Positions 1,249-3,390 of a stretch of 56,361 nucleotides of DNA are shown here, one piece after another. The notes under the pieces are model-generated. The model ran no database searches, was not told the DNA's origin, and saw only the letters and a program-made list of their open reading frames with translations. Origin of the DNA: a virus. Location of the stretch: the IMG/VR virus record IMGVR_UViG_3300025674_000049, positions 1-56,361 of that record; one strand, 5' to 3'. Made by a program: the position numbers and the translations under genes. Position 1 is the stretch's first letter. Each line of letters opens with the position of its first letter.

Positions 1249-1463
1249 TGGCCTGCCTCAATCAAGGCAAACAGTTCCTGTTTGCAGTCGGCGACGGTGG
1301 AGCCGACCACGGTGTGGAGACCGTACATGCCGTAGTAGGCGCCTTCGGCCTCGGTGATCAGAGCGATGGCCTGGGGGCGGACGCCCTCCGGGCGGGGAAC
1401 ATCTGTGCGCCAGATGAACTCCAGGTATCCGTCCGCATCTGCGCGGCGGGAATCAAATTGCAT
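1245..1463 (-). CDS. Small hypothetical protein (72 aa)
   Basis: ATG at 1461-1463; first protein gene of the leftward small-gene operon, directly downstream (in transcription order) of the structured RNA region. MQFDSRRADADGYLEFIWRT begins an alpha/beta-looking protein with GAYYGMYGLHTVVGSTVADC near the end. No known domain. Probably expressed from promoters in 2130-2250. Confidence 0.6.
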   Translation of the reverse strand: MQFDSRRADADGYLEFIWRTDVPRPEGVRPQAIALITEAEGAYYGMYGLHTVVGSTVADCKQELFALIEAGQ

Positions 1464-1513
1464 GTGCTAAAACCTCAGCTAGGGGATGGGTGCCCGGTGA
1501 AATGCCGGGCAAT

Positions 1514-1603
1514 AGCAGCTAGGGGGACTTGAACCCCCATACAGAAAGCCCGCCTCCACCAGGAGACGGGCAGACTGCGCCTTGCCGCCGGAGCGGTAGC
1601 CGC
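1514..1603 (-). ncRNA. tRNA-like element without a recognisable anticodon arm
   Basis: On the minus strand, GCGGCTA (1603-1597) pairs with TAGCTGC (1521-1515) as a 7-bp acceptor stem with one G-U. A perfect T arm follows tRNA rules: stem GGGGG/CCCCC around loop TTCAAGT (1538-1522). A short D-like arm (CGC/GCG with GG in the loop) sits at 1595-1578. In place of an anticodon arm there is a 10-bp hairpin with 4-nt loop (arms 1571-1562 and 1557-1548). No 5+7+5 anticodon stem-loop fits, and CCA is not encoded. It may be a tRNA mimic, a decayed tRNA, or a domain of the larger RNA. Confidence 0.4.
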
Positions 1604-2089
1604 TAAATTCTTGCCTGACTGCCAGTCAGGGCTTTTAAGTTGCAGAGCCGGACGACAATCCGGGTTGCGTTATTCACAGGAAACCAACGGTTTACACCAA
1701 GGGCAGCGTGTTCAAGAGCTAGGTCGTTTGAGGACCGCACACTCAGAGAACCGGGATCATTGGATGAATCACCCGTGCTGCCTTGTCAGGCCGCAATCTC
1801 CTTCCCACTCACTCCCAGGTCGGTCAGGGCCACCGTGCTGATCCCTCAGCACCTGCTACACGCAACGTGGCTTGTCCCTCTGGTGGACAGAACTTGGGCG
1901 CTTTCCCGTAACGGTCAAGTGACCGCGTCCCTTGATTACACGAGCTCCGCAGAGCCACGCTTGGGGACCATCGTCCGGCAGAACCGCAGGCATCGCCGCC
2001 CTTGGATCTTTATCCGCGCTTACGTTCCGTTGCTGGCATCGCCAGCCGCAAGCTTGTTTTATGGGGCAGCTACTATCGGCCGCGGTTGC

Positions 2090-2114
2090 TTAATTCATAG
2101 ATGAGTGCCTCCTT
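2090..2114 (-). other. Consensus Shine-Dalgarno before a two-codon ORF
   Basis: Minus strand AAGGAGG (2114-2108) lies 9 nt before ATG AAT TAA (2098-2090), so the strongest ribosome site of the left region leads to a start-codon, one-codon, stop peptide. The site is at the 5' end of the hairpin-rich region. It might be a ribosome-docking or stalling device of the RNA, the remnant of a lost gene, or chance. Confidence 0.35.
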
Positions 2115-2125
2115 TAGGTGAGTTA

Positions 2126-2250
2126 AGTGTTGCATGGATTGACTGGATTGTCAACCAGTTGGCCGGGAGTGTTAGGTGGGACGTCTAAGCGTCGCATGAC
2201 CTGAACCCCTCGGTTGAATCAATGATGGCACAGGGTAGGGGATCTGTCAA
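2126..2250 (-). promoter_or_regulatory. Two sigma70-like promoters reading leftward
   Basis: First: TTGACA at 2250-2245, 17-bp spacer, CATCAT at 2227-2222 (4/6 to TATAAT). Second: TTGACA at 2154-2149, 17-bp spacer, weak AACACT at 2131-2126. Both point at the structured RNA region and the small-gene operon. The first sits immediately downstream of a TGAGTCTC palindrome (2271-2288), where a bound protein could block or activate it. The -35 boxes are perfect, the -10 boxes weak, so an activator may be needed. Confidence 0.4.
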
Positions 2251-2254
2251 GCAC

Positions 2255-2448
2255 TCAACTATGAATTAGTTGAGTCTCGTGAGACTCACTAGCACGCTGG
2301 GGGACCTTTCGGATTAGAAAGGAACCGCGCGCGCGCGGGTGTGCCTAACCCAGTATTGCACAGCACGGGCGAAAGCGCAAGCCCATTGGCTGAGTCTCAT
2401 GAGACTCATGTGAGGGTCACGAGTCTCAGGTGAGTCTCACACTGAGAC
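2255..2448. promoter_or_regulatory. Palindrome cluster: GAGTCTCA repeats and other inverted repeats
   Basis: An 18-bp perfect palindrome TGAGTCTCATGAGACTCA lies at 2391-2408; a near copy with 8-bp arms and central GT is at 2271-2288. Further direct GAGTCTCA units are at 2421-2428 and 2432-2439 and a half site at 2443-2448. Between them are TCAACTA/TAGTTGA (2255-2273), CCTTTC/GAAAGG (2305-2322) and a self-complementary alternating CG tract (2325-2338). The arrangement between the sigma factor gene and the leftward promoters fits operators for a dimeric regulator or an origin; no protein can be assigned. Confidence 0.55.
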
Positions 2449-2517
2449 AAACCCGAAGGGGGGTACACCTGTGCATATCACTACCAGGCCCTATAAAAAT
2501 GTATATATATGTCGTCC

Positions 2518-3390
2518 TTATTCTTGAACAAGATTGCTATCATCACATAGCCTTATCCGCAACTTGCGGATTGCCTTAGCATGTACAGCGGAGGCTTTGT
2601 GGCGAGTGAGCCCGAATTCAATAGCTAATTCTTTAAGGGATTTGCCATCAAAGAAATAACCGGTCACCAAAGCGCACTCGATGGGCTCCAAGGTGTCGAG
2701 TGCGACCTCGAGTTTCTCGTCGCGCTCGGTGATCAGAGCAGCTAGCTCCGGAGACTCGAAACCGCTCGGATCGGGCGACGTCAACACTTGGTCTATCGAG
2801 TTGTCACTAAAGCGAGACAACGCGTCAAGGGACAAACAATGGGCAGCGTCACAGTTACCCAGCACGTCTTGGATGCGAGCAACTGATAATTTTGTCGCTT
2901 TTGCTAAGTCTTGCACGGTCGGGTGTGTCTCCGTCTTAGCGTTGTGTGCTACTACTGCTCGTTGAATCGTGCGCATATCGTCCTGGACATTTATAGGTAT
3001 CCGAATTGTTTGAGCTGTGTTGTAGATAGCGCGGGATATTGATTGGCGGATCCACCAATAGCTATAAGTGCTAAAGCTGTAACCTCGTGCAGGGTCAAAT
3101 AACTCTAGACTACGCATTAAACCTAAGTTACCTTCTTGAATTAAATCACCTAAATCCAATCCACGTTGCGTGTACTTCTTTGCAATGCTTATGACTAAAC
3201 GAGCGTTGGTTTCTACCATAAGGCGCATAGAGCGCTGACCACGCAGCTTGACACTGTGTGGCGCATGCTCACGGCCCCCGGGGTAGTCGACATAATCGCG
3301 GATACGTCGACAGTGGTGGAGCTGTGCTTCTTTTGTTAGTACAGGGAACCGCGTAATACTGCGCATATACGCGTCTAGCTCAGATGCCAT
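2518..3390 (-). CDS. Phage-encoded sigma70-family RNA polymerase sigma factor
   Basis: 290 aa, without region 1.1. Region 1.2 is at about 2-35, region 2 at 58-122 with NARLVISIAKKYTQRGLDLG, DLIQEGNLGLMRS and the promoter-melting segment FSTYSYWWIRQSISRAI, region 3 at about 125-205 and region 4 at 222-280. Regions 2.1-2.4 closely follow primary/group-2 sigma factors of cyanobacteria, so core binding and a TANNNT-type -10 element are expected. In region 4.2 the usual SRERVRQIE recognition helix is replaced by TRHKASAVH (262-270), so -35 recognition is probably altered. It likely redirects host RNA polymerase to phage promoters. Eight nt separate it from the kinase gene upstream. Confidence 0.9.
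   Translation of the reverse strand: MASELDAYMRSITRFPVLTKEAQLHHCRRIRDYVDYPGGREHAPHSVKLRGQRSMRLMVETNARLVISIAKKYTQRGLDLGDLIQEGNLGLMRSLELFDPARGYSFSTYSYWWIRQSISRAIYNTAQTIRIPINVQDDMRTIQRAVVAHNAKTETHPTVQDLAKATKLSVARIQDVLGNCDAAHCLSLDALSRFSDNSIDQVLTSPDPSGFESPELAALITERDEKLEVALDTLEPIECALVTGYFFDGKSLKELAIEFGLTRHKASAVHAKAIRKLRIRLCDDSNLVQE

Follow-up and report, generated by a model that had tools for sequence, protein, structure and literature searches.

A large structured minus-strand RNA with a minimal-ORF leader, a tRNA-like 3' domain and an exchangeable core in a probable cyanophage

What does a phage encode between a sigma-factor gene and a small open reading frame (ORF) where no convincing gene can be found? 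The question is raised by a virus contig of 56,361 bases (IMG/VR record IMGVR_UViG_3300025674_000049), analyzed over its whole length and referred to here as the window. The contig carries genes for terminase, portal, major head protein, tape measure, DNA polymerase, thymidylate synthase and a sigma factor. The virus is a probable uncultured cyanophage, since the best named-phage matches of its exonuclease are mostly Synechococcus phages (about 30-34% identity). On the minus strand, the RNA polymerase sigma factor gene (2518-3390; phrog_351, E 3e-54) lies upstream of the locus and a 72-aa ORF of no family, conserved in relatives, lies downstream (1245-1463). No convincing gene was found between the start of the small ORF (1463) and the end of the sigma-factor gene (2518), in agreement with the original prediction, which had proposed that 1491-2120 holds a large structured phage RNA (about 600 nt), probably read from the minus strand.

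Relatives of the locus were collected from IMG/VR through their sigma-factor, exonuclease and small-ORF genes, and later also through RNA patterns. The DNA between the sigma gene and the promoters has features of its own. It holds the palindromes GAGTCTCATGAGACTC (2392-2407) and GAGTCTCGTGAGACTC (2271-2286), possible operator or origin elements, and many relatives have GAGACTC repeats at the same position. An AT-rich block, ACATATATATACATTTTTATA (about 2490-2515, minus strand), directly follows the sigma gene and is conserved in almost all relatives.

Read from the minus strand, 1491-2120 specifies a large, structured RNA (about 600 nt) and not a protein. Its fold beats dinucleotide shuffles (z -3.4, with 0 of 20 as good; z -2.9 and 0 of 60 in a second run), whereas the plus strand folds no better than its shuffles (z -1.2 and -1.1). 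Because folding energy alone was only modestly better than shuffles in several RNA classes, and thus too weak to judge them, covariation was used as the criterion instead. Substitutions in homologues preserve pairing. Between the window and its relative L071, six fall in paired columns and all leave a standard pair (one column being unpaired in the window), and a C and a G inserted jointly make a hairpin longer by one pair. A protein-coding gene was rejected: substitutions between the same two sequences are distributed over codon positions as 9/3/6, with no third-position bias, and a plus-strand frame of 154 aa is broken in L071 by a 1-nt and a 2-nt indel. No conserved coding frame was found.

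The core of this RNA, assigned to class I, occupies 1639-2059 on the minus strand. It is 421 nt in size and has multiple helices, some of them long-range. The consensus fold of three sequences (window, L071, L128) has 113 pairs, and 95% of cells pair. Changes on both sides are seen in 24 pairs against a shuffle mean of 8.9; none of 500 shuffles reaches 24, a count that is not to be read as a probability. When partners are slid by one column, pairing falls to about 40%, although this control favours the fold, which was derived from the same three sequences. The most conserved domain (1815-1883, minus strand) runs from CCRGAGGGACAAGCYRN through a hairpin with a GGGA tetraloop to NYRGCCCURACCGNCCYGG. 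In eight diverse sequences, 100% of its cells are paired and nine are double-changed, compared with 2.9 in shuffles; the tetraloop sits on a stem of differing sequence in most relatives. The many short-loop hairpins that were first noticed in the RNA are likewise backed by covariation.

These compensatory changes bear on the idea that the hairpins belong to a DNA-level element, such as a replication origin or packaging site. The palindromes GAGTCTCATGAGACTC and the AT-rich block just upstream (2392-2520) would suit such an element. However, pairing is kept across a 421-nt core with long-range helices, and the T-loop, terminators, promoter and minimal ORF described below all indicate one RNA strand, which makes a DNA element scarcely credible.

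From the anatomy of promoter and terminator, we infer that the structured RNA is transcribed. Promoter boxes had been predicted just upstream and are found there on the minus strand (2126-2154), with a -35 box TTGACA at 2154-2149 and an extended -10 box TGCAACACT at 2134-2126. While this site is absent from the list of a stricter consensus scan, nearly all relatives have a promoter of the form TTGAC..TGnnAnnnT in front of the RNA, at an unchanged position. Transcription is predicted to start at about 2119 on the minus strand; the originally proposed ends (1491 and 2120) nearly match this start and the end of the 3' hairpin at 1492. A second promoter-like site further upstream (2222-2250, minus strand; TTGACA, 17 nt, then CATCAT with TG; 10 of 12 matches) is one of two or three in tandem.

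The leader contains a minimal ORF (2090-2114, minus strand), in which a Shine-Dalgarno sequence AAGGAGG (2114-2108) precedes ATG AAT TAA (2098-2090). Such a frame, consisting of AUG, zero or one codon and a stop, is formed by the first AUG in 31 of 36 distinct leaders, whereas only 7 of the 180 other AUGs of these RNAs form one, a count that is not a probability because the leaders are related to each other. The promoters of these leaders were located by pattern, with three (L118, L128, L133) placed by eye. UAA, UAG and UGA are all in use as stops and some frames are AUG-stop without a codon between, which speaks for selection acting on translation, not on a constant DNA sequence. The second codon, where present, always ends in a pyrimidine (NNY) and varies widely (His, Arg, Asn, Ser, Asp, Ile, Val, Pro). 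Five of the 36 leaders are without a minimal ORF and several have no clear Shine-Dalgarno sequence. A GC hairpin, GCGGC-CGAUAGUA-GCUGC (2066-2083, minus strand), follows the frame and has analogues after the minimal ORF in many relatives. It is not universal: L002 lacks about 8-10 nt of the hairpin though its core is 99% identical to that of the window.

The 3' side of the RNA carries a tRNA-like domain at 1513-1605 (minus strand). The tRNA-like fold noticed originally is therefore real, as judged by covariation and by a match of 103 bits to covariance model R1, in which the window is included, though ARAGORN and Rfam call no tRNA there. The domain comprises an acceptor-like stem of 7-9 bp, a short hairpin followed by the D-arm-like GGCAAGGC, a long hairpin that replaces the anticodon arm, and a T-stem with the T-loop UUCAAGU (UUCAAAU in L089 and L112). 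Seven of the nine acceptor pairs are changed on both sides among five sequences. In the domain as a whole, 95% of cells are paired and 10 pairs are double-changed, against 4.0 in shuffles. The name tRNA-like is used descriptively, for an acceptor-like stem stacked on a T-arm, a UUCRANN T-loop and pairing under selection. There is no encoded CCA, the D-arm is degenerate, and the T-arm and acceptor resemble a cyanophage tRNA-Leu at an E value of only 0.8. A true tRNA was rejected, as no cloverleaf with a 7-nt anticodon loop is called by ARAGORN or Rfam. Beyond the domain lies a hairpin without a U-run, GCCCGG-CAUUUCA-CCGGGC (1492-1510, minus strand), with hairpins at the same place in L003 and L089.

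Some variants of the domain were also observed. In L112 (10835-10990), the 5' strand of the T-stem is interrupted by about 57 inserted nt. Weak matches to the tRNA-like model (E 0.01-0.09; L111:12008-12095, L118:4745-4830, L097:10593-10670) were not relied on. They include a T-arm-like hairpin, GGURG-UUCUGAU-CYACC, and lie within class II/IV RNAs whose 3' end is a terminator.

Seven loci (window, L002, L071, L003, L089, L112, L135) possess the tRNA-like 3' domain. The remaining distinct cores carry an intrinsic terminator at the 3' position, except for L072 and L083, which end at the contig edge, and L109, whose terminator differs slightly from the pattern used. When 41 distinct cores were grouped, the two kinds of 3' end never occurred in one locus. 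A stacked acceptor stem and T-arm constitute a minimal RNase P substrate, and for this reason we infer that the domain is an alternative way of forming the 3' end, through RNase P/Z. Its long arm is followed by TTTCTGT and scored as terminator-like; it could act as a weak terminator at which some transcripts stop. At L132 (3460-3560), an apparent duplication of the terminator-side element (CACAAACCATCTC...) suggests recombination at the 3' boundary.

The 3' ends also bear on the possibility that this is not a free RNA, but a cis-acting leader or attenuator of the downstream small genes (1245-1463 and on). We consider this unlikely. While the versions with a tRNA-like domain do lack a strong intrinsic terminator between RNA and ORF, and the order of RNA then small ORFs is common, a strong terminator precedes the next gene in most relatives. 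In addition, the downstream genes differ (L074, L080, L087, L094), cores are swapped whatever gene follows, and cis elements rarely form a closed fold of such a size (about 500-700 nt).

Taken with the leader, the tRNA-like domain invites another explanation, namely that the RNA acts in trans against host translation. The minimal ORF, like the lambda bar minigenes, would load and waste ribosomes or tRNAs, the tRNA-like domain would occupy tRNA-binding enzymes or sites, and the core would be a scaffold. This is a genuine possibility, though one to which we assign a minority share of belief. It gains from the strong enrichment of the minimal ORF over chance, from the selection on pairing in the tRNA-like domain and from the binding of ribosomes by the phage RNA GOLLD in pull-downs (PMC12286853); it loses from the absence of the tRNA-like domain in most relatives, of a Shine-Dalgarno sequence in some leaders, and of any single target tRNA given the variable second codon. 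As this codon varies, depletion of one tRNA in the lambda bar manner is ranked lower.

Homologues of the window core were found at twelve distinct loci including the window (11 further), between the sigma-factor gene and small ORFs, in one uncultured group, probably of cyanophages. The motif of the window-class core, GAGGGACAAGC-N-GCCCTRACCGNCC, is present in IMG/VR and was not found by pattern search in GTDB genomes, in which exonuclease relatives were not found either. Searches with the pattern GCGGCCGATAGTAG returned mostly chance matches, and neither the RNA region of the window nor a class III RNA had a BLASTN match among named phages.

Among the relatives, the identity of the core is uncoupled from that of the neighbouring proteins. 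The window core recurs in L071/L006, 94% identical across 565 nt, together with a sigma factor that is 49% and a nucleotide kinase that is 41% identical. In contrast, the sigma (88%), kinase and exonuclease proteins of L003 are 83-91% identical to those of the window, and its leader and 3' end are similar, but its core is different. This uncoupling points to exchange of cores between phages of the group by recombination. The 41 distinct cores form eight groups without detectable sequence similarity (BLASTN, shared ends trimmed), some of which could be very diverged homologues. Covariation evidence for structure covers two of these groups, the window class and class II; the class II core is itself a structured RNA, with 17 double-changed pairs against 8.5 in shuffles. 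A locus that holds different large RNAs between the same kinds of ends suggests an exchangeable RNA tool.

An inserted mobile element, of ribozyme or intron-like type, might also produce differing cores at one site and exchange between lineages. However, the promoter, leader and 3' end remain with the site and do not travel with the core, no gene is interrupted and no protein is encoded. Group I and group II introns and other Rfam ribozymes were rejected as candidates, with no model match in the window, L002, L003 or relatives. An element of this type is very improbable. A more tentative extension of the exchangeable-core reading, held at somewhat less than an even chance, is that the fixed locus is an RNA cassette. 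Its constant 5' part would comprise tandem promoters, the AUG-X-stop minimal ORF and in many cases a GC hairpin, its 3' part would be either an intrinsic terminator or a tRNA-like processing domain, and the two would frame at least eight dissimilar large cores. Phages would exchange these cores as they might rival weapons or countermeasures to defence, with the RNAs working as particles that are loaded with ribosomes and mimic tRNA.

The account that we prefer, and to which we give about an even chance in its entirety, is a stand-alone phage non-coding RNA gene with a stop-limited leader, a 3' end processed by RNase P/Z, a swappable core and a particle-like RNA that acts in trans. Minus-strand transcription would start near 2119. 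Ribosomes would bind the leader and stop after one codon, leaving the 5' end occupied and the fold behind it never unwound, and the core of about 420 nt folds into a compact multi-helix RNA. At the tRNA-like domain, which takes the position of the terminator in most relatives, host RNase P and/or RNase Z would most likely separate the RNA from the downstream small genes. The most likely mode of action of the mature RNA, by analogy with GOLLD and ROOL, is that of an abundant folded particle that works in trans and perhaps binds the translation machinery. The core is a module swapped among phages of the group.

Beyond the large structured RNA first proposed, this locus combines exchangeable cores with a leader and a 3' end that are both unusual. 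Phages have few structured RNAs of very large size; GOLLD and ROOL are those considered here, and no function is known for any of them. In close relatives, large RNAs that replace one another between constant ends provide many natural variants of one RNA gene, so that function is testable by swapping. In addition, the minimal ORF and tRNA-like 3' end are checkable clues to contact with the machinery of translation and tRNA processing.

Whether the RNA belongs to GOLLD or ROOL had been left open by the original prediction, and membership was not borne out. Their covariance models gave no match at E values up to 5 in window positions 1400-2600 or in the L003 RNA, and no Rfam family, these two included, reached its gathering score in the window, L002, L003, 12 relatives and sampled core classes (the best relaxed match, tRNA-Sec with 18.8 bits against a gathering score of 47, was no better than chance). 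By Rfam's defining test the RNA is not GOLLD or ROOL, but it is probably of the same broad kind. Both are phage RNAs without a known function that assemble into cages made only of RNA (PMC12286853). The RNA described here is also phage-encoded, with terminase, portal, major head protein and DNA polymerase genes on its contig. GOLLD and ROOL often lie next to tRNA genes, ROOL near tRNA islands (PMC12286853); ARAGORN found no tRNA or tmRNA in the window or in relatives, contrary to an initial hint of neighbouring tRNAs.

Like GOLLD, some examples of which come from aquatic metagenomes, the RNA is large and ornate with variable and conserved regions. It differs in its core of about 420 nt, its minimal-ORF leader, the lack of a model match and the lack of tRNA genes in the window. 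The linker of GOLLD in some cases contains phage tRNAs, whereas the present RNA has a 3' tRNA-like domain without an anticodon, not a complete tRNA. It shares with ROOL a phage or prophage location, a size of about 600 nt, many helices and no known protein partner, but has no model match or nearby tRNAs, and its cores are swapped at a fixed locus. The RNA also recalls tmRNA, likewise a large RNA that combines a tRNA-like domain with a short reading frame, but this candidate was rejected on the basis of no ARAGORN or Rfam match and no tag reading frame. In contrast to tmRNA, the RNA has no CCA and its acceptor closes only about 93 nt; an acceptor G3-U70 pair is present only in the window group and varies elsewhere. 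Eukaryotic long RNAs of the MALAT1/mascRNA type have a 3' tRNA-like element that can be cut by RNase P and Z, and the phage RNA resembles them in the tRNA-like end of a long RNA and, putatively, in its processing. Finally, the bar minigenes of phage lambda are minimal AUG-codon-stop frames in phage transcripts; the frame described here differs in being attached to a large structured RNA and in having varied second codons.
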